Shown here: piece after piece, positions 29,037 through 39,874 of the stretch
Numbering within the stretch: the first letter of the stretch is position 1
Layout: every line of letters starts with the position of its first letter
Source of the DNA: Candidatus Polarisedimenticolia bacterium
Lineage (GTDB): Bacteria > Acidobacteriota > Polarisedimenticolia > Gp22-AA2 > AA152
Reading direction: 5' to 3'
Length of the DNA: 40,164 nucleotides
Assembly (NCBI GenBank): GCA_035764505.1
Contig: DASTZC010000058.1
Coordinates: 1-40,164 of the forward strand
The notes under the pieces: generated by a model
What the model was told of the DNA's origin: nothing
The model's input: the letters and a program-made list of their open reading frames with translations, nothing else
Database searches by the model: none
Position numbers and translations under genes: made by a program

Positions 29037-31277
29037 GTGCGTCTCACCATCATTCTTATAGTTGCCGGATTGGCTGCGTCGCTGTGCGCGGCGGCGCCGG
29101 CCGGGAAGCCGCGGGTCGTCATTCTGGGCTTCGACGGGGCCGACCCCAAGCTGGTGGAGCAGCTGATGGGGGAGGGGAAGCTGCCCAACCTTTCGAAGCT
29201 GTCCCAGGAAGGGAGCTATACGCGTCTGGCGACCACCAATCCGCCGCAGACTCCGGTCTCCTGGTCCACCTTCTCCACCGGCATCAACCCGGGCAGGACC
29301 GAGATTTTCGACTTCCTCAAGCGCATCGACGGCACCTATGTGCCGGAATTCGCCATGGCGACGGAGAGCCGCAAGCCCTTCATGCTGGGAGCTCGGACAC
29401 CCGTGGCGGCAGGGTGCGCCGTCGGATTGGCGCTGCTGCTCCTCGGAGGCGCCGTCGCCTGGCTGGCCCGGCCGGCGCGCCGGTGGGTGGCCATCGGCAC
29501 GGTGCTGCTCGCGGTGGCGGGGGGCTCGGGAGCGGGATGGGTCGCAAAGACCAAGCTGCCGGCCGAGGTGCCGAACGCCATCAACCATCGCAAAGGGACG
29601 ACGATGTGGGGCTGGGCCTCGCAGCACGGCGTTCGCAGCCGCGTCCTGCACGTCCCCAATACCTTTCCCGCCGAGCCGATGCATGGCGGCGCCATGCTTT
29701 CGGGGCTGGGCGTTCCCGACCTGCGCGGCCGCATCGGCTCGCCCGCTTTCTACAGCTCCGACGCCGCGCTGAAGAGCCGCCTGGAAGAGAACCAGTTCAG
29801 CATCGAGTTCGTGCAGCTCGACTCCGATCGCGGGCATCTCGAGACGCACGTGGTGGGACCCTACAACAAGCCGTTCTTCGACTACCGGGTGGACGACGCG
29901 CTGGCGGCCCTGCCGCAGGGGGCCGACCGCTCGGCGGCGCGCAAGAAGGCGGAGAAGGACCTCGAGGACCGCGGAATCGCCCGCCGGATCGATCTGCCCA
30001 TGGATCTGGAGGTGGGAGACAGCTCGCTCAAGGTGCGCGTGTCGGGCCATGAGCAGACACTGGCGCCGGGGGAGTGGAGCGACTGGTTCGTCCTCGATTT
30101 CCCGGTGAACTGGCTGGTGGATCACGTCGGTGGGATCCGCGGCATGGCGCGCTTCAAGCTGCTTTCCCTGAAGCCGCACGTGCAGCTCTACCTGTCGCCG
30201 ATCAACTTCCATCCCGATTTCGAGCCGATCCCGTTTTCCTCTCCGAAGGGGTTTGCCGCCTCGCTGGTCCCGTCGATCGGACTGTTCAAGACGCTGGGCT
30301 GGCCGATCGACACCTGGACCCCGAGCGCGGGGCTGGGAGACGACACCCTGTTCCTGGAGGACATGGACTTCACGGTGCGCAAGCAGGAGGCGATGATGGA
30401 CCGCTTCCTGAAATCGGGAGAGGACCGCCTCTACGTGCAGGTCTACGACTTTCCCGATCGCATCGGACATCTCTGGTGGCGGATGCTGGATCCGAAGCAC
30501 CCCCTCTACGACCCGGTGGAGGCGGCGCGCTTCGGCTCCGAGATGGAGAAGGCCTATATCCGGATGGACTCGATTGTGGGCAAGGCGCGCGCCATGCTGC
30601 CTCCCGAGACGCTGCTGATGGTCTGCTCGGACCACGGCTTCGCCTCGTTCCGGCGCGGGATGAACTACAACACCTGGCTGGTGCGCAACGGCTGGATGAT
30701 CCTCAAGGAAGGACCCGGCGGCACGCGCAGCCTGGAGGACCTGTTCGATCGCGGGGAGACGGGGGAGTTCTTCAAGTTCGTCGACTGGTCCCGGACGCGC
30801 GCCTATGCCATGGGGCTGGGGAGCATTTACGTGAACCTCGCGGGACGCGAGCCGCGCGGCAGCGTCGCGCCGGGGCAGGAATACGAAGCAGTGCGCCAGG
30901 GGATTATCGACGGGCTGCAGGCCTACGTCGATCCCGACACCGGAGAGCACCCCGTGCTGCGGGTCTACCGGCGCGAAGATATGTATAAGGGATTCGATCC
31001 GGCGCTCATCCCCGACCTGCGGGCGGCCAACAGCGAGCACTACCGCGTGGGATGGCAGACGGCCCTGGGCGAGGTGCCGCCGAACACGGTGGAGGACAAC
31101 CGCAAGCTGTGGAGCGGCGATCACTGCTCGGTGGATCCGAGCCTGGTTCCGGGGATCCTCTTCTCGTCGCGCAAGCTGGTGCGTGAGAATCCCGGCATCC
31201 AGGATGTCTTCCCGAGCGTCCTGCAGGTCCTGGATTTGCCGCCGGTGGAAGGAATCGACGGCCGGAGCTTCTTCTGA
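29037..31277 (+). CDS. Alkaline phosphatase-superfamily phosphodiesterase-like protein
   Basis: 746 residues from a GTG start, with an N-terminal signal peptide (LTIILIVAGLAASLCAAA). The two-metal site of the nucleotide pyrophosphatase/phosphodiesterase group is visible: Asp in ILGFDGADP, nucleophile Thr in NPPQTPVSWSTFSTG, Asp and His in YDFPDRIGHLWW, SDHGF, and His in WSGDHCSVDPSLVPG. Two adjacent hydrophobic segments at about residues 123-144 and 150-170 form a membrane hairpin inside the catalytic domain, which is unusual. The substrate is unknown; lipid- or nucleotide-linked phosphodiesters are family possibilities. It heads a coupled run with the LytM and S41 genes (TGATG overlap). Confidence 0.88.
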   Translation: MRLTIILIVAGLAASLCAAAPAGKPRVVILGFDGADPKLVEQLMGEGKLPNLSKLSQEGSYTRLATTNPPQTPVSWSTFSTGINPGRTEIFDFLKRIDGTYVPEFAMATESRKPFMLGARTPVAAGCAVGLALLLLGGAVAWLARPARRWVAIGTVLLAVAGGSGAGWVAKTKLPAEVPNAINHRKGTTMWGWASQHGVRSRVLHVPNTFPAEPMHGGAMLSGLGVPDLRGRIGSPAFYSSDAALKSRLEENQFSIEFVQLDSDRGHLETHVVGPYNKPFFDYRVDDALAALPQGADRSAARKKAEKDLEDRGIARRIDLPMDLEVGDSSLKVRVSGHEQTLAPGEWSDWFVLDFPVNWLVDHVGGIRGMARFKLLSLKPHVQLYLSPINFHPDFEPIPFSSPKGFAASLVPSIGLFKTLGWPIDTWTPSAGLGDDTLFLEDMDFTVRKQEAMMDRFLKSGEDRLYVQVYDFPDRIGHLWWRMLDPKHPLYDPVEAARFGSEMEKAYIRMDSIVGKARAMLPPETLLMVCSDHGFASFRRGMNYNTWLVRNGWMILKEGPGGTRSLEDLFDRGETGEFFKFVDWSRTRAYAMGLGSIYVNLAGREPRGSVAPGQEYEAVRQGIIDGLQAYVDPDTGEHPVLRVYRREDMYKGFDPALIPDLRAANSEHYRVGWQTALGEVPPNTVEDNRKLWSGDHCSVDPSLVPGILFSSRKLVRENPGIQDVFPSVLQVLDLPPVEGIDGRSFF

Positions 31278-32446
31278 TGCGCCGCGGGGCGCGCGCCGCC
31301 GCACGGATCGGCGTGGCCCTGGCGCTCGTGAGCCTGGCGGCCATGGCGCGCGCGGACGACCCGGACGCGCGCGCGGAGGAGAGTCGCCGTCTGGATCGGG
31401 TCCGGGAAGAGATCGCCCGCCTCCAGGCGATGGTCGGCAGGGCGCGGGACGAGGAGAAGGGATTGCTGGGAGATCTGCATCGCATGGATCTGGAGATGGC
31501 GCTGCACGAGCGGCAGATCGCGCTGACCGGCGCGGAGCTGGTGCGCTGCCGCGCCGAGCTCAAGGAAGCCACCCGCCGGGCGGAGGAGAGTCAGGCGAAG
31601 CTGGAGAGCGGCCGCCGGCAGCTCGCCGAGAGGATTCGGGCGATGTACCGGGCCGGTCCGGTGCGGGCCGAGCGTGTGCTCCTGACCTCCGACAATCCGG
31701 CCGAAGTGGTCAGCGCCTATCGACTCGCGGAGCGCTCGGCCGCCGCCGATCAGGAGCGGGTGGCGGAGTTTCGCAGTCTGGAGGCGCAGTGGCGTGCCAC
31801 CCAGGCGCAGCTCGAAACGCAGCGGCGCACCTTATCGACCCTGCGGGCGCGCGAGATGGAGCGCCGGCAGGAGCTGGGATCGGTGAAGCAAGAGCGCTCG
31901 CGGATGCTCTCGGGGCTGCAGCAGGAGACCTCGAAGCAACAGGAGCTCCTGGATGAGATGATGGAGACGGAGAAGGCGCTGGCGAGCCTGGTCAAGACCT
32001 TGGCGGAGGGAGGATCTCCCGCCGCCGGGATGGCGCTGGGGTTCGGCCGATTTCGCGGGCTCCTCCCCTGGCCGGTCCCGGGGAAGATGCTGGTGCCGTT
32101 CGGCGCCCAGAAGAGCACCAGGTTCGAGACGCTGGTGCCGCATCCCGGCATCGAGATTGCCGTGTCCACCGGAGAGCCTGTGCATGCCGTGCACGAGGGG
32201 CAGGTGGCTTTCAGCGACTGGTTCAAGGGGTACGGGAACCTTATCGTGCTGGATCATGGCGACGGCTACATGTCGGTTTACGCCCATGCCTCCGAGCGCA
32301 AGGTGGCCGCGGGGGATCACGTGGCGGCGGGACAGGTGATCGCGAGTGCCGGCGATACCGGCTCCCTGGAGGGACCGAGGCTTTTTTTCGAAATCCTGAA
32401 GGATGGCAAACCTGAGAATCCGGTGATCTGGCTGACCCGGAGATAG
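31277..32446 (+). CDS. EnvC-like murein hydrolase activator, degenerate LytM/M23 domain
   Basis: 389 residues: a signal peptide, about 230 residues of charged coiled coil, then a C-terminal M23 (LytM) domain. The zinc-site residues are eroded. The HxxxD motif reads HPGIE (His289, Glu293), and the closing HxH is RLF within GPRLFFEIL; only the YAH His (337) remains. E. coli EnvC is eroded in a similar way and works by activating cell-wall amidases at division, so an activator rather than a hydrolase is likely. The ATG overlaps the upstream stop by one base. An S41-family gene follows after 10 bases, an arrangement common beside envC homologues. Confidence 0.9.
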   Translation: MRRGARAAARIGVALALVSLAAMARADDPDARAEESRRLDRVREEIARLQAMVGRARDEEKGLLGDLHRMDLEMALHERQIALTGAELVRCRAELKEATRRAEESQAKLESGRRQLAERIRAMYRAGPVRAERVLLTSDNPAEVVSAYRLAERSAAADQERVAEFRSLEAQWRATQAQLETQRRTLSTLRAREMERRQELGSVKQERSRMLSGLQQETSKQQELLDEMMETEKALASLVKTLAEGGSPAAGMALGFGRFRGLLPWPVPGKMLVPFGAQKSTRFETLVPHPGIEIAVSTGEPVHAVHEGQVAFSDWFKGYGNLIVLDHGDGYMSVYAHASERKVAAGDHVAAGQVIASAGDTGSLEGPRLFFEILKDGKPENPVIWLTRR

Positions 32447-32456
32447 GAGGCGGTGG

Positions 32457-33629
32457 ATGATGCCCATGGATCGCGGGCGCAAAGCGATGCTGGCCGTGTC
32501 GAGCGCTCTGGTCGCCTTCGTCCTGCTGGGAGGCGTGCTGGGGCGCTCGCTGGCCGTGGAAGGGACCTATTCCTTCCTCAAGCTGTTCAACGAGGTCCTG
32601 TACCTGGTACGCAACAATTACGTCGAGCCGGTCAAGGACGACGCCCTGATGGAAGGAGCCTACCGGGGGATGCTCGAGGCTCTGGATCCGCAGAGCGAAT
32701 ACCTGTCGGCCGCGGAGGTGCATCTCGCCGCGAGCGGCGGCAGGAGCGGTCCGGCCGATCTGGGCCTGGTCCTGTCGAAGCGCCGTGGGTATGCCGTCGT
32801 GGTCTCGGCCATGGAGGACTCGCCGGGGCGCAAGGCCGGCCTTTCCACGGGAGACGTCATCCTCACGGTCGACGGGAAGTCGACGATGAAGATGGGAGCC
32901 TGGGAAGCGACGCAGGCGCTGCAGGGAAAGCCCGGGTCCACCGTGCGCCTGAACGTCCTGCGGGGCACCGAGGCGCGCAGCGAGGACATGAGCCTGGTGC
33001 GCAAGACTCCGGCGCGGGCCGCGGTGGTTGCCACGCTCCCCGAGCCGGGCACCGGAGTGCTGAAGGTCAGCTCCCTGCTGGAGGGAGACGCCGAGCGGGT
33101 CCGTAAGAGTCTGGCTTCCCTCAAGACCCAGGGTGCCCGCAAGCTCATCATCGATCTTCGCGCCAACGCCGGATCGCGCATGGAAGAAGCGGTGAAGGTT
33201 GCCGGGTTCTTTGCCGGCGCCGGGGTCGTGGCCCAGGTCGCCGATCGCAAGGCGGGAAATTCCGAACTGACGGCGCCGGCTTCACCCGCCGTCTGGAAAG
33301 GACCCCTGGTGGCGATCGTGGACGGCGGCACCGCCGGTGCCGCCGAGGTTCTCGCCGCGGCGCTTAGGGACCGGGCCGGGGCGTCGCTGGTGGGCGAGAA
33401 GACCTGGGGGATGGGAACGCTCCAGAAGGTCATCACTCTCCCGGCCGGAGACGGCATCCGGCTGTCGGTCGCGAAGTACCTGTCGCCCGCCGGCAAGGAC
33501 TGGAACGGGACAGGGCTTTCGCCCGACGTGGCGCAGGCCAAAGACGCCGAATCGGGCACCGAGGACGTCCAGATGAAGAAAGCACTCGAGGTCCTCCGGC
33601 AGGACGGCCCGCAACGCCAGGCCGCCTGA
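32457..33629 (+). CDS. S41 (CtpA-like) protease homologue lacking the catalytic dyad
   Basis: 390 residues. A signal anchor (AVSSALVAFVLLGGVLG), a short N-terminal helical region (YLVRNNYVEPVKDDALMEGA), a PDZ domain (about residues 100-180) and the S41 core are present. In active CtpA/Prc enzymes the core reads SASAS-E, with a Lys 25 residues later in FGKGT. Here it is TAGAAE, with Gly294 at the nucleophile position, and WGMGT, with Met319 at the Lys position. The 25-residue spacing is preserved, so this is a pseudoprotease rather than a misalignment. The IDLRNNPGG loop is also changed (IDLRANAGSRM). A binding or regulatory role next to the LytM protein is inferred. AGGAGG lies six bases before ATG 32457; a second ATG follows at once. 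Confidence 0.9.
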   Translation: MMPMDRGRKAMLAVSSALVAFVLLGGVLGRSLAVEGTYSFLKLFNEVLYLVRNNYVEPVKDDALMEGAYRGMLEALDPQSEYLSAAEVHLAASGGRSGPADLGLVLSKRRGYAVVVSAMEDSPGRKAGLSTGDVILTVDGKSTMKMGAWEATQALQGKPGSTVRLNVLRGTEARSEDMSLVRKTPARAAVVATLPEPGTGVLKVSSLLEGDAERVRKSLASLKTQGARKLIIDLRANAGSRMEEAVKVAGFFAGAGVVAQVADRKAGNSELTAPASPAVWKGPLVAIVDGGTAGAAEVLAAALRDRAGASLVGEKTWGMGTLQKVITLPAGDGIRLSVAKYLSPAGKDWNGTGLSPDVAQAKDAESGTEDVQMKKALEVLRQDGPQRQAA

Positions 33630-33648: not shown

Positions 33649-35640
33649 TTGAATCATCCGTCTGCAGCTTCTCTCCGCCAAACGCGGCTTCGCCGCGCCG
33701 GCGGAGCCTTTCGCCCGCTCGCGGGGGGGATCCTTTCGTTGGTTCTCGCCGGTGCCGCCCAGGGGGCTGCCGAATCCTCGGCCGACCGCGCCCGCGCCTA
33801 CTACCTGTTCAGCCTCTCCCAGCAGGCGCAGTTCAAAAACGAGATGCCGGACGCCATCCGCTATCTCAACGAGGCGATTCAGACCTCCGATTCCACCGAC
33901 TTGCGGCTCGAGCTGGCCTCCTTGTACTCGAACATGAACCGGGTCGACGACGCCGAGCTGGAGGCGCGAGAGGCGGTCAAGAAGGACCCCGCCTCGGCCG
34001 CGGCCCGGCGCACGCTGGCGCAGATACTCTTCCGCAGGGCGGCTTCGGGGGAGGACGTCGAGTCGCGCATGAAAGAGTCGGAGGCACTCTACCAGGAGCT
34101 CGTCGACGGCAATCAGGCGGATGAGGATTCCGCCATCGCCCTGGCCGATCTGCAGCGTGGCCGCGGCGACACCGCCGCGGCGGTCGCCACTCTGGAGTCG
34201 TTCCGCCAGAAGCAGTCTTTCTCGACGGCGCTGGACGTCAGGCTGTCGCGCCTCTATCTGGAGATGGGACGCAACGAGGAGGCGAGGAAGCTGCTCGAAG
34301 GGGCGATCGACAAGGCGGGGGACGATCGCGAAGCGCGCGAGCTGCTCGCGGAGGTCCTGGACGATGCGGGGAAGCCGCAGGAAGCGATCGACATCTACCA
34401 GCCGCTGGTCGATGCCCATCCCGATAATGCCTTCGCCCAGTACCGCCTGGGAGCGCTGCTGAACTCCGCCGGCAAGTTCAGCGAGGCAAAGGAGCACCTG
34501 CAGATTGCCCTCGATTCCGACCCGGCCAACGTGCGCGTCCTGCTGGCGCTCGGGCAATCGATGCTCGGGGACGGGGAGCCGCGCCAGGCGGAGGAGATCT
34601 ACAGCCGCGCCCTCAACCAGGACCCCGGCTCGCTGGAGGCGCGCTTCTTCCTGGGGAGGATCGCGCAGGCGCGTGCCGAGGACGATCGGGCCCTCGCCCT
34701 GTACGAGCAGATCCTGACGCAGACGGCGCAGCGCGGCTCCACGCAGGAAAAGGCGTTCTACGGCCTGGCCTCGTTCCAGGTGGGCGTCATCCATTACCTG
34801 CAGAAGGATTATCTGGAAGCCTCCAAGGACGTGCGCCGCGCCATCGACGCCGCCTCGCGCCCCTCCGAGGAGCTCTACACGCTGCTGGCCCGCATCGAGC
34901 TGGACTCGGGAAACCTGGAGAAGGCGAGCCAGGTCCTGGAGGAAGGGGCCGCGAAGCTCCCCGGGAACGTCGAGATCAAGGCCTTCGAGGCCGAGGTGCT
35001 GCTGCGCCAGAGGGAGCGCACCGCGGCACGTGCCATCTTCCAGGAGATCCTGAAGGATGAAAAGGAGTCGGTCGACTCGTACCTTCTGATCGTCCAGGCC
35101 TGCGTGCGCGCCGAGCAGCCGAAGGAAGGAGAGGCGTGGATGCGGCGGGCGGCGCAGAAGCACCCCGACTCGCGGGAGATCTCCTTCCAGAGCGCCGCCC
35201 TGATGGAGCAGTCGGGCCGGTTCCGGGACGCGGAGGCGGCTTTCCGCAAGCACCTGGAGCGCTTTCCGGACCATGCCGAGGCGTTGAACTACCTCGGGTA
35301 CATGCTCGCGGATCGTGGCGAGAAGCTCGAGGAGGCGCTGAGCCTCATCGAGCGCGCGGTGGCGCTGCAGCCTGAGAACGCCGCCTTTCTGGACAGCCTC
35401 GGATGGGTGACCTTCCGCCTGGGACATCCGCGCGAGGCGGAGGCGCAGCTGGTGCGCGCCGTGGAAGGATCGCGCGATGACGCCACGGTCCTGGAACACC
35501 TCGGCGACGTCCTGGATGCGCTCGGCCGTCCTTCCGAGGCGCTGGACAAGTACAAGAAAGCGATGGATCGCAATCCGGAGAAGCCCGAACAGCTGCGCAA
35601 GAAAATGCGCAAGCTCGGCGCCAAGCTGGGCGCCCCTTGA
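33649..35640 (+). CDS. Exported tetratricopeptide repeat protein
   Basis: 663 residues from a TTG start with GAGGAG eight or so bases upstream. A basic N-terminus is followed by a hydrophobic signal-like segment (AGGILSLVLAGAAQGAA). From about residue 47 to 640 the protein is tandem TPR units of about 34 residues, for example FAQYRLGALLNSAGKFSEA and LEARFFLGRIAQARAEDDRA. It ends Lys-rich (KKMRKLGAKLGAP). TPR arrays mediate protein-protein contacts; the partner cannot be told. It is co-oriented with the S41 gene upstream, and its stop overlaps the LolB-like start as TTGA, suggesting a role in outer-envelope assembly. Confidence 0.88.
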   Translation: MNHPSAASLRQTRLRRAGGAFRPLAGGILSLVLAGAAQGAAESSADRARAYYLFSLSQQAQFKNEMPDAIRYLNEAIQTSDSTDLRLELASLYSNMNRVDDAELEAREAVKKDPASAAARRTLAQILFRRAASGEDVESRMKESEALYQELVDGNQADEDSAIALADLQRGRGDTAAAVATLESFRQKQSFSTALDVRLSRLYLEMGRNEEARKLLEGAIDKAGDDREARELLAEVLDDAGKPQEAIDIYQPLVDAHPDNAFAQYRLGALLNSAGKFSEAKEHLQIALDSDPANVRVLLALGQSMLGDGEPRQAEEIYSRALNQDPGSLEARFFLGRIAQARAEDDRALALYEQILTQTAQRGSTQEKAFYGLASFQVGVIHYLQKDYLEASKDVRRAIDAASRPSEELYTLLARIELDSGNLEKASQVLEEGAAKLPGNVEIKAFEAEVLLRQRERTAARAIFQEILKDEKESVDSYLLIVQACVRAEQPKEGEAWMRRAAQKHPDSREISFQSAALMEQSGRFRDAEAAFRKHLERFPDHAEALNYLGYMLADRGEKLEEALSLIERAVALQPENAAFLDSLGWVTFRLGHPREAEAQLVRAVEGSRDDATVLEHLGDVLDALGRPSEALDKYKKAMDRNPEKPEQLRKKMRKLGAKLGAP

Positions 35641-36350
35641 TCCGTCCTTCCATCGCGGCCGTCCTGCCGGCGGGCCTGCTGCTGTTCTCGGGCTGCGCCC
35701 ATCCGAAGGCGCTGCCCCGGCTCCCGGAGCCGCCCGCCGAAATCCCGGGCTACGTCGCGCTGCTGGGCGCACGGTCCTCCGGAACGGAAGGAACCTCGCG
35801 CGCCAGGGTCGCCGCCGCTTTCCTCGCCCCATCCAGTCTGAGGCTCGAGATCCTGGATCCCGCCGGCAGCACGCGGGCCGTGCTCATCTCCTCGGAAGAG
35901 GGGGCGCTCTACCTGGATCCCGCGGCACGCTCCTATCGCACTTTTCCGGATGGCGCCGGCGCGCTCGATGCCCTGGTAGGGATCGAGGCCCCCTCCGATC
36001 TGCTGGCGCGACTGGTTCTCGGACCGGCGGCAGCGATGCAGGGGCTGGTCTGTGCCGGAGAGGCACCGACGACCTGCAAGCTCCCGGGAGGAGGGGAGCT
36101 TCATCTCCTTCACGCCAGCCCTTCTTCCGCCGAGATCGTCGATCCTCGGACCGGCACCGTGGAGGTCCGCTGGGACCGTAGCGTGGCGGCTTCCGGCGAG
36201 ATACCTCGCGCCACCGAGCTGCGCCTTCCGGCGCGCGGCGCGATGCTGCGCCTGGAGATGCGCGAGCTGCGCTTCACCGCCCCCGAGACTTCTCTTTTCT
36301 CGCTGCTTCCTCCCGTCGGCTTCCATCCGGCGGAGCCGTCCGGACGATGA
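35637..36350 (+). CDS. LolB-like outer membrane lipoprotein
   Basis: 237 residues from a TTG overlapping the TPR stop codon (TTGA). The lipobox FSGC ends the signal peptide (GLLLFSGCAHPKAL). The mature protein has the pattern of the LolB/DUF4292 half-barrel (GTSRARVAAAFLAPSSLRLEILDPAGSTRA; ALYLDPAARSYRTF). LolB receives lipoproteins from LolA and inserts them in the outer membrane. Sequence identity looks low, so the call rests on the lipobox, the fold-like pattern and the position directly before ispE and prs, as lolB is in Proteobacteria. Its stop overlaps the ispE start as ATGA. Confidence 0.72.
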   Translation: MIRPSIAAVLPAGLLLFSGCAHPKALPRLPEPPAEIPGYVALLGARSSGTEGTSRARVAAAFLAPSSLRLEILDPAGSTRAVLISSEEGALYLDPAARSYRTFPDGAGALDALVGIEAPSDLLARLVLGPAAAMQGLVCAGEAPTTCKLPGGGELHLLHASPSSAEIVDPRTGTVEVRWDRSVAASGEIPRATELRLPARGAMLRLEMRELRFTAPETSLFSLLPPVGFHPAEPSGR

Positions 36351-37240
36351 GAAGCCTGCACATTGCTCCGCACGCGAAGGTGAATCTGGGACTGCGCATT
36401 TTGGGGCGCCGGCCGGATGGCTATCACGATCTGGAAACCCGCTTCCAGACCATCGACCTGTGCGACGAGCTGGAGCTGCGCGAACACCCGCGCACCCTTC
36501 GCCTGCGGGTGGAAGGCACCGATCTGCCGTCCGATGACAGCAACCTGGTGATGCAGGCAGCGCGGCGTCTGCGCGACTCGAATCCGGGACTCCCGGGGGC
36601 CACCATCGTCTTGAGGAAGCGAATTCCAATCGCCGCGGGGCTCGGAGGGGGAAGCTCCAATGCCGGTGCCACACTGATGGGTCTGAACCACCTGTGGGAC
36701 CTCAGGCTGCCGGAGGAGGAGCTGCGTGGGTTGGCGGCATCGCTGGGGGCCGACGTCCCTTTCTTCCTGGTGGGAGGATGCGCGCTGGGCTCGGGCCGCG
36801 GCGATATCCTCGCGGCGCTCGAGGATCTTCCGAGCTGCTGGCTGGCCCTGGTGCTGCCCGGGTTTCACTCTTCGACCCCGGAGGCTTTCAGGCTCTGGGA
36901 CGCCCGTGCCGCAGTCGCTCCGGACCGCGAGGAGAGGGAGGGGTCACTCGTATCGGCGGCAGGGGACCTCTCGAGCGCGGCGCTGCACAACGATTTCGAG
37001 GCGGTCCTGTTCGAGCGCTTCCCGGTCCTCGCCGAGCACCGCGATCGGCTGCTGCGCTTGGGCGCCACGGCGGCGGCGCTGTCGGGCAGCGGCCCATCGC
37101 TTTACGGGGTTTTCGACTCCGAAGACACTCTCCGGCGCGCCCTCAACGATCCAGGCTGGGGAGCGGTGCAGCGACATGCCGCCGCGCCGGTGGGGCGCGC
37201 GGCATATCGGCGACGCCTGGGCATCCCTCTATCTGATTGA
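36347..37240 (+). CDS. ispE: 4-diphosphocytidyl-2-C-methyl-D-erythritol kinase
   Basis: 297 residues, a GHMP kinase of the methylerythritol phosphate isoprenoid pathway that phosphorylates the 2-OH of CDP-methylerythritol. Motif 1 is APHAKVNLGLRILGRRPDGYHDL. The ATP loop is IPIAAGLGGGSSNAGATL, at about residues 93-110. LGADVPFFLVGGCALGSGRGD and the C-terminal GATAAALSGSGPSLYGVF are all present. ATG 36347 overlaps the LolB-like stop. The C-terminus is Arg-rich. Confidence 0.95.
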   Translation: MRSLHIAPHAKVNLGLRILGRRPDGYHDLETRFQTIDLCDELELREHPRTLRLRVEGTDLPSDDSNLVMQAARRLRDSNPGLPGATIVLRKRIPIAAGLGGGSSNAGATLMGLNHLWDLRLPEEELRGLAASLGADVPFFLVGGCALGSGRGDILAALEDLPSCWLALVLPGFHSSTPEAFRLWDARAAVAPDREEREGSLVSAAGDLSSAALHNDFEAVLFERFPVLAEHRDRLLRLGATAAALSGSGPSLYGVFDSEDTLRRALNDPGWGAVQRHAAAPVGRAAYRRRLGIPLSD

Positions 37241-37577: not shown

Positions 37578-38540
37578 ATGAAGCAACGCGAGACGCAGGT
37601 CGACAGTACCCTCAAGGTCTTCGCGGGAAACGCCCATCCGCAGCTGACGCGCGAGATTTGCGACTACCTGCACGTCCCGCAGGGAATGCTGAACCTCACG
37701 CGCTTCAGCGACGGCGAGATCTACTGCCAGGTGCTGGAGAATGTCCGCGGCACCGACGTCTTCGCGCTGCAGCCGCTGGGACCTCCGGTCAACGAGAACC
37801 TGATGGAGCTGCTCATCCTGATGGACGCGTTGAAGCGATCCTCGGCACAGCGGATCACCGCCGTGATTCCTTATTACGGCTACGCGCGGCAGGACCGCAA
37901 GGACAAGCCGCGGGTGCCCATCTCGGCGAAGCTGGTCTCCGATCTGATTACTGCCGCCGGAGCGGACCGGGTCCTCACCATGGACCTGCATGCCCCGGCG
38001 ATTCAGGGCTTTTTCGACATCCCGGTGGACCACCTGTTCGCGGCGCCGGTGATTATCGAGCACGTGGCCAAGCTGAAGATCCCGGACCTGGTGATCATCT
38101 CGCCCGACGCCGGCGGGGTCGAGCGCGCCCGCGCCTACGCCAAGCGGCTGCACGCCTCCCTGGCGATCATCGACAAGCGGCGGGTGGAGAAGAACGTCGC
38201 CGAGATCCTGCACGTCATCGGAGACGTCAAGGGAATGAACGCCCTGATCGTCGACGACATCGTGGACACGGCCGGGACCCTCACCGGCACCGTGAAAGCG
38301 CTCAAGCAGGAAGGGGCCAGGAAGATCTATGCCTGCTTCACGCATGCGGTCCTCTCCGGGCCGGCCCAGGAGCGCCTCAAGGCCTCCGAGCTGGAGAAGG
38401 TGGTCGTGACCAATACCATCCCCGTGGATGCGACGCGCCAGAGCGAAGGACGTGTCGAGGTGCTGTCGATCGCCTCTCTGCTGGGCGAGGCGATCAAGAG
38501 GATCCACAACAATTCATCGGTGAGCTCGCTGTTTGTTTGA
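37578..38540 (+). CDS. prs: Ribose-phosphate pyrophosphokinase
   Basis: 320 residues. It makes PRPP from ribose 5-phosphate and ATP for nucleotide, His and Trp synthesis. Conserved blocks are KVFAGNAHPQLTREI, RFSDGEIYCQVLENVRG, ITAVIPYYGYARQDRKDKPR, VLTMDLHAPAIQGFFDIP, VIISPDAGGVERAR, and the PRPP loop LIVDDIVDTAGTL. Length is normal for the family. The stop codon is followed by AAGGAGAAGGA and the rplY ATG after 10 bases, so the two are co-transcribed, as in many bacteria. Confidence 0.97.
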   Translation: MKQRETQVDSTLKVFAGNAHPQLTREICDYLHVPQGMLNLTRFSDGEIYCQVLENVRGTDVFALQPLGPPVNENLMELLILMDALKRSSAQRITAVIPYYGYARQDRKDKPRVPISAKLVSDLITAAGADRVLTMDLHAPAIQGFFDIPVDHLFAAPVIIEHVAKLKIPDLVIISPDAGGVERARAYAKRLHASLAIIDKRRVEKNVAEILHVIGDVKGMNALIVDDIVDTAGTLTGTVKALKQEGARKIYACFTHAVLSGPAQERLKASELEKVVVTNTIPVDATRQSEGRVEVLSIASLLGEAIKRIHNNSSVSSLFV

Positions 38541-38550
38541 AGGAGAAGGA

Positions 38551-39258
38551 ATGGAAGAGATTGTGATCGATGTGACTCCGCGGACCGAGTTCGGGAAGAA
38601 CCCCTCGCGCCGCCTGCGCCGCTCGGGGATGATCCCGGGAATCGTCTACGGCTCGCAGAAGCCTCCCGTGCCGATCTCGGTGGATCCCAAGCAGGTGGAG
38701 CGCATCCTGCACCTCGAGAGCGGCGTCAACACCATCTTCACGCTGCACCTGGTCGGCAAGGACCAGCGCCGCTACGCCATGATCAAGGACTTCCAGACCG
38801 ACCCGGTGAGCAACCGGCTGCAGCACGCCGATTTCATCCGCATCCAGATGGACGAAGCGATCCAGGTGAACGTGCCGATCCAGACGGTGGGCGAGGCCCC
38901 CGGAGTGAAGCTCGATCTCGGCATCTTGGACATTCCGCTGCGCGAGATCCGGATCGAGTCGCTGCCGGCGGACATCCCGGACTACGTCCAGGCAGACATC
39001 TCGGCCCTGAAGATTGGCGACAACCTCAGGGTCGCCGATCTGAAGGTGCCGGCGCGCGTGAAGGTCCTCACCGATCCCGATCAGGTCGTCGCGGTCGTCA
39101 CTCCGCCGGCGAAGGAAGAGGAGGCGGCCGCCGCGCCGGTGGCGGAGGTGAGCGAGCCCGAGGTCATCAAGAAGGGCAAGGCGGCGACGGAAGAGGCGGA
39201 AGGTGCCTCCGAGGCCCCGGCGAAGCCCGAGAAGAAGGAATCGAAGAAGGAAGGGTGA
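38551..39258 (+). CDS. rplY: 50S ribosomal protein L25/TL5 (CTC form)
   Basis: 235 residues. The N-terminal L25 domain binds 5S rRNA (EFGKNPSRRLRRSGMIPGIVYG). The C-terminal TL5/CTC domain follows (IQVNVPIQTVGEAPGVKLDLGILD, LREIRIESLPADIPDYVQADISALKIGD). The last 40 residues are an acidic-basic low-complexity tail (KEEEAAAAPVAEV... KKESKKEG), longer than in many relatives. ATG 38551 follows AAGGAGAAGGA; an in-frame start at 38533 overlaps prs and is less likely. Confidence 0.94.
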   Translation: MEEIVIDVTPRTEFGKNPSRRLRRSGMIPGIVYGSQKPPVPISVDPKQVERILHLESGVNTIFTLHLVGKDQRRYAMIKDFQTDPVSNRLQHADFIRIQMDEAIQVNVPIQTVGEAPGVKLDLGILDIPLREIRIESLPADIPDYVQADISALKIGDNLRVADLKVPARVKVLTDPDQVVAVVTPPAKEEEAAAAPVAEVSEPEVIKKGKAATEEAEGASEAPAKPEKKESKKEG

Positions 39259-39271
39259 GCCGCAGCCGGCC

Positions 39272-39874
39272 GTGGCCTTGAAGATCGTGGTGGGCTTGGG
39301 CAACCCCGGAGCAAAATACCGGGGCACCCGCCACAACCTGGGCTTCTGGGCGTTGGAGGAGCTGGGACGGCGGCAGGGGTGGCCCTTCCGTTCCGAGGAG
39401 TGCGACTCACGGGTGGCGCGTGGGAGCCTGCGGGAGATCGAGGTCCTGCTCGCCGAGCCGCAGACCTACATGAACGCCAGCGGCGGCGCCGTCGCCTGCC
39501 TGCTGGAGACATACGGCAGCGGACCGGAAGATCTCCTGGTGGTTTGCGACGACGTGGCCCTGCCGCTGGGAATGATGCGGCTGCGGGCGGCGGGAAGCGA
39601 CGGGGGCCACCGGGGGCTGCGCTCCATCACCGAAGTCCTCGGGACGGAGTCGTTCGCGAGACTGCGCCTGGGAATCGGGGCGGGGGACGAGCCGCTTGCC
39701 GAGCACGTGCTGGCTGAGTTCGACTCGGATCAGCGGGCGCTGGCGGTGGAAGCCGCGGCGCGCGCCGCCGAGTGTCTGGGGACGGCTCTCAGCGAAGGGT
39801 TGGAAGCCGCCATGAACCGATACAATCGGAAGCCCGAATCAGGGCCTCCGGAGCCTGCCCGCGGGCAGGCCTGA
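39272..39874 (+). CDS. pth: Peptidyl-tRNA hydrolase
   Basis: 200 residues. It frees tRNA from peptidyl-tRNA that drops off ribosomes. The start KIVVGLGNPGAKYRGTRHNLGFWAL contains the catalytic His and family Asn. LAEPQTYMNASGGAV, the Asp in LVVCDDVALPLGMMRLR, and GSDGGHRGLRSI are all present. GTG 39272 (VALKIVVGLG) is preferred, with TTG 39278 as an alternative. It lies 13 bases after rplY and 38 before rpsF, the usual order in many genomes. The C-terminal 15 residues lie over an 18-base palindrome. Confidence 0.94.
   Translation: MALKIVVGLGNPGAKYRGTRHNLGFWALEELGRRQGWPFRSEECDSRVARGSLREIEVLLAEPQTYMNASGGAVACLLETYGSGPEDLLVVCDDVALPLGMMRLRAAGSDGGHRGLRSITEVLGTESFARLRLGIGAGDEPLAEHVLAEFDSDQRALAVEAAARAAECLGTALSEGLEAAMNRYNRKPESGPPEPARGQA

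Follow-up and report, generated by a model that had tools for sequence, protein, structure and literature searches.

Bacterial C-terminal processing peptidases have been studied as proteases that restrict cell-wall hydrolases. The CtpA fold is also found without protease activity in vertebrate IRBP (RBP3), an extracellular retinoid carrier built from repeated modules. CspC and CspA are subtilisin-like. In C. difficile these two bacterial pseudoproteases are kept as regulators of spore germination (PMC12880746). In P. aeruginosa, ctpA belongs to an envC-ctpA-PA5135 operon, with PA5135 as the orthologue of the SddA/YibQ deacetylase (PMC12569750), while lbcA shares an operon with lolB and ipk, in the order lbcA-lolB-ipk (PMC6050968). 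The CtpA-LbcA complex of this species has one active subunit per CtpA dimer, and His84 has been proposed from cryo-EM as the third catalytic residue (PMC11021448).

The window analysed here is a stretch of 40,164 nucleotides from a Candidatus Polarisedimenticolia bacterium (Acidobacteriota), and it contains a gene for a CtpA-like protein, here called ctpA* (Table 1). The envC-like gene, ctpA*, the LbcA-like TPR gene, a lipoprotein gene and ispE form one compact predicted operon in which the last three genes overlap end to start.

Table 1. Features of the window; nucleotide positions refer to the window and residues to ctpA*
Feature	Position	Strand	Residues	Remarks
Type I phosphodiesterase/alkaline phosphatase superfamily protein (PF01663)	29037..31277	+		Upstream neighbour, conserved in the window's class
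EnvC-like protein	31277..32446	+		Coiled coil and degenerate M23 (LytM); ends 10 bp before ctpA*
ctpA*	32457..33629	+	390 aa	Predicted S41A-type pseudoprotease
N-terminal TM or signal segment			~9-32	
NDR helices			~37-84	
LDPQS (LDPHS in active CtpA)	32682..32696	+	76-80	His84 equivalent is Gln79
PDZ			~100-175	
S41 core			~199-358	
LRANAG (LRxNPGG in active CtpA)	33156..33173	+	234-239	
Former active-site block (DGGTAGAAE...TWGM)	33321..33413	+	289-319	From alignment to P. aeruginosa CtpA
Ser to Gly	33336-33338	+	294	Codon
Lys to Met	33411-33413	+	319	Codon
C-terminal end				Short helix
TPR protein, LbcA-like C-terminal half	33649..35640	+		Starts 19 bp after ctpA*
Small lipoprotein	35637..36350	+		Lipobox LFSGC; lolB position, after the lbcA-like gene and before ispE
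ispE (GHMP kinase)	36347..37240	+		Last gene of the tightly packed run
prs, L25, pth	37578..39874	+		Downstream of ispE, conserved in the window's class

An earlier note on this DNA had recognised an S41 (CtpA-like) protein with a retained PDZ domain, and both the Pfam matches and the alignment to P. aeruginosa CtpA (PaCtpA) agree. Peptidase_S41 (PF03572) is matched with 128 bits, PDZ_2 with 45 bits and the CtpB N-terminal domain with 32 bits, and the score against TIGR00225 is 216.3 bits, slightly below the cut-off of 218.6. In fold and sequence the S41 domain is that of the S41A C-terminal processing peptidases, and the PDZ is placed, as in that group, after the N-terminal helices and before the S41 core. 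PaCtpA (PDB 7rpq) aligns to residues 41-361 with an E value of 1e-51, ungapped across the active-site block. The residues Leu46, Phe49 and Leu53 in helix H1 of PaCtpA, which bind LbcA (PMC11021448), correspond to Leu41, Phe44 and Leu48. The C-terminal dimerisation region, which is long in PaCtpA, has a shorter equivalent here. The genome is an acidobacterial MAG, and the closest named relative is 'Acidobacteria bacterium AA152' (L039, 69% identity).

P. aeruginosa CtpA (MEROPS S41A) is an active protease with a Ser302-Lys327 dyad and His84, whereas all three residues are replaced in ctpA* across the phylum. Active CtpA has the dyad plus His84 or Gln; in ctpA* the first three are replaced by Gly294, Met319 and Gln79, and Gln323 is kept. 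The PaCtpA segments GGSASAAE and SFGKGSVQ align without gaps with GGTAGAAE and TWGMGTLQ, so that Gly294 takes the position of Ser302 and Met319 that of Lys327. This is the assignment made previously for positions 33321-33413 (residues 289-319), and a script confirmed the numbering along with the 25-residue spacing between Gly294 and Met319. The exchange of His for Gln79, the change of the NPGG motif of active CtpA to NAGS and the loss of the dyad throughout the phylum go beyond what had been noted.

The distribution of these replacements was followed through 60 relatives and then 297 genomes of the phylum. Active-site columns were read in 164 copies from 163 Acidobacteriota genomes representing about 65 families, as tallied by hand from codes; some of the families searched, for example those of G041, G043 and G070, gave no ctpA*. 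A scan of viral contigs for further sequences gave nothing useful. Ser and Lys do not occur together in any of the 164 copies, and the few that retain one of the two have it singly. The Ser position holds Gly in 134 copies. At the Lys position at least 17 different residues are found, mostly Leu, Arg, Ala, Glu, Met or Asp, and Lys remains in only two copies, neither of which has Ser. Thus, when relatives were surveyed for the Gly/Met pair of the window as the earlier note proposed, Gly proved to be the usual residue, while some 17 residues, Met among them, occur at the other position.

The control group comprised 26 active-type CtpAs, including those of P. aeruginosa and H. pylori, and Ser, Lys, His and Gln are present in all 26. 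As an unbiased test, all 35 columns that are invariant in the controls were ranked by their retention in the operon clade. The three least retained are Lys (1%), His (4%) and Ser (4%), which together are the proposed catalytic triad of CtpA. Gln323 is found in 62% of the dead clade, and Asp233, Arg235, Glu297, Gly313 and Gly318, which lie in the same motifs, are retained at 98-100%. In the dead clade some positions that vary among active CtpAs have become fixed, namely Tyr55 (99%), Gly67 (96%) and Gly331 (92%).

The invariance or near-invariance of Asp233, Arg235 and Glu297 could be taken as a sign that ctpA* is still a protease, either through different catalytic residues or through a rearrangement of its active site. 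However, these three residues are nearly invariant in active enzymes too and therefore are probably structural. A ranking of every conserved S, K, H, C, D or E column over the clade gave no replacement for the catalytic Ser or Lys; the best-conserved Ser (80%, in the PDZ) and the best-conserved Lys (61%, in the C-terminal helix) are not universal, and the NPGG motif is gone. Continued proteolysis by ctpA* is thus highly improbable. An AlphaFold model based on three sequences (the window, L039 and L040) reached a mean pLDDT of 55, which is too weak for an overlay of the active site, and in Foldseek this low-confidence model ranks chains of the CtpA-LbcA complex first. The absence of a Ser/Lys catalytic geometry is deduced from the alignment and from the lack of an alternative conserved Ser or Lys. 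That ctpA* is catalytically dead is well supported by these comparisons, which show a predicted protein whose fold, PDZ and N-terminal helix for dimerisation and LbcA binding are kept while Ser, Lys and His are lost phylum-wide.

In an unrooted tree built without the motif columns, dead and active copies are separated by one split with a support of 100/100. Given this split, a single ancient loss that predates most of the diversification of the phylum fits best. The loss could be older still, since the root was not inferred and the sampling covers Acidobacteriota only.

The frame is open through all 390 amino acids with zero stops, and it is open in essentially every genome with ctpA*. Compared with two congeners, dN/dS is estimated at about 0.18, a rough figure since dS is near saturation. 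Amino acid identity to the same congeners is 68-69% for ctpA* and 40-59% for the neighbouring EnvC-like, TPR, lipoprotein and IspE proteins. Judged from these values, the dead copies are evolving under purifying selection. A decaying pseudogene, an assembly error or an alignment slip might have been suspected while the active site alone had been inspected, as in the earlier note, but the chance of this is now negligible with open frames in essentially every genome, the low dN/dS, 164 of 164 copies without the dyad and an ungapped active-site alignment. Sequencing error, assembly error, recent decay and alignment slip are ruled out by the dyad-less copies, dN/dS and the open frames. The earlier claims that the substitutions are genuine and that the intact frame encodes a retained pseudoprotease have held, the latter also in view of the conserved operon, and dN/dS was estimated as that note had recommended.

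In the majority of the genomes studied closely, an intact CtpA is present in addition to the dead one. The intact paralogue in the genome of the window (L001, G000 contig 288) is likewise an S41A protein with a PDZ, but it has 540 amino acids and the full motifs LDPH, NPGG, SASASE and GKG. It is encoded elsewhere in the genome and falls opposite ctpA* across the 100/100 split. The same genome has a further S41 copy (L002, G000 contig 209) in which both residues of the dyad, Ser and Lys, are retained (TGSAAE...GKG); its frame is open and starts with TPR-like sequence.

The coexistence of dead and intact copies, the conserved NDR helix residues of ctpA* and the PaCtpA dimer with one active and one inactive subunit (PMC11021448) would be compatible with a heteromeric regulator, in which ctpA* joins the intact paralogue through the NDR as a permanently inactive protomer. 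This is unlikely considering that ctpA* has diverged strongly from the intact paralogue (about 33% identity), which is longer and has its gene elsewhere.

The surroundings of ctpA* point to the cell wall at most loci. An EnvC-like gene adjoins it in 80 of the 164 loci. A divergent polysaccharide deacetylase of the SddA/YibQ type follows on the same strand in 39 loci, including L206 (G090) and L047 (G049), and the complete order envC-ctpA*-sddA-like is seen in 31. A further large group of the phylum has a transglycosylase (PF00912) downstream instead (20 loci, L117 among them). YceG/MltG lies upstream in 34 loci, and ctpA* is divergent from it in about 35. Altogether 130 loci have at least one of these peptidoglycan-related neighbours (EnvC-like, deacetylase, transglycosylase or YceG/MltG). 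The gene ctpA* occupies the genomic position of CtpA itself, with envC upstream and an lbcA-like or sddA-like gene downstream. The link between ctpA* and LbcA is not universal because only the class of the window has the LbcA-like neighbour, while other classes have the deacetylase, transglycosylase or YceG beside ctpA*.

Within the window, the EnvC-like neighbour has the coiled coil and the degenerate LytM domain of EnvC. Its best NCBIfam match is EnvC with 119 bits, below the cut-off of 270. The HxH motif with the last His ligand is replaced (RLF in the window) and is absent from all 33 copies aligned; such a loss of a zinc ligand is expected if the protein is an amidase activator. Two adjacent genes, the EnvC-like gene and ctpA*, thus both encode dead catalytic centres. 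The genome also encodes AmiC-type amidases and FtsX alongside the intact CtpA.

For the TPR gene the best natural match in PDB is PA4667/LbcA (7rqf/8sxe, E 1e-26), with designed TPRs ranking higher. When the genome was searched with the C-terminal fragment of LbcA, this gene came first with 74 bits and the next hit had 30 bits. LbcA itself is a lipoprotein of the outer membrane that binds CtpA by an adaptor domain at its N terminus. The window protein contains the C-terminal TPR block of the LbcA type and has a signal-like N terminus in which a lipobox is not evident; the N-terminal region is too diverged for alignment to LbcA. The small lipoprotein that follows evolves fast, had no match in a Pfam search and is possibly a diverged LolB.

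Fold, PDZ, NDR and the position after envC are shared with the CtpA of P. aeruginosa, as is an sddA-like gene downstream in many relatives and an adjoining LbcA-like TPR gene in the class of the window. With its LbcA match and gene order, the run in the window looks like the envC-ctpA and lbcA-lolB-ipk operons of P. aeruginosa joined together. The difference is that lbcA follows directly after ctpA* here but is part of a separate operon in P. aeruginosa.

The loss of all cutting residues together with the phylum-wide keeping of the gene beside cell-wall genes suggests that ctpA* probably binds proteins instead of cutting them. IRBP, which shares the S41/CtpA fold without protease activity, matches ctpA* at E 5e-14, best across the former active-site half. 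This match, with Gly294 and other positions newly fixed, might indicate that the fold has taken on the binding of a lipid or small molecule in the manner of IRBP. Such a role appears quite improbable: there is no sign of a pocket, and the retained PDZ, together with an operon that forms a module for control of cell-wall proteins, favours peptide binding. The PDZ-EnvC context is absent in IRBP.

On balance, ctpA* seems to be an ancient member of the CtpA (S41A) family that is functional but not proteolytic, and this reading, in which it acts as a PDZ adaptor in the control of peptidoglycan hydrolases, is held with reasonable though far from full confidence. The protein would dimerise or oligomerise in the periplasm, with helix H1 as its contact to a TPR partner of the LbcA type. 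Cell-wall hydrolases, or the proteins that activate them, would be recognised at their C-terminal tails by the PDZ and substrate groove of ctpA* and would be captured and positioned, or restrained, with no cleavage. As a PDZ scaffold of this kind, ctpA* may serve as an adaptor in the regulation of the EnvC-amidase or endopeptidase pathway, and any cutting would be left to the separate intact CtpA of the same genome. The retention of a dead protease as a regulator would be a likeness to CspC and CspA, which differ in fold and pathway. More tentatively, and with somewhat less than even expectation, the phylum may have turned the envC-linked CtpA from a protease into an adaptor that does not cut; control of peptidoglycan hydrolases by a complex of the LbcA-CtpA type would then proceed by capture and not by degradation.

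No description of this dead clade was found in the open-access literature on inactive or non-peptidase S41 proteins. The annotation 'S41 family peptidase' for ctpA* in Acidobacteriota is probably wrong about activity, which affects peptidase censuses of metagenomes. A dead CtpA that is under selection in the operon of CtpA itself, beside EnvC and LbcA-type genes, suggests that a non-proteolytic function of the complex is valuable enough to be retained by itself. Its presence throughout a phylum poses a question that can be approached in non-pathogenic soil bacteria, namely which roles CtpA may have beyond cutting.
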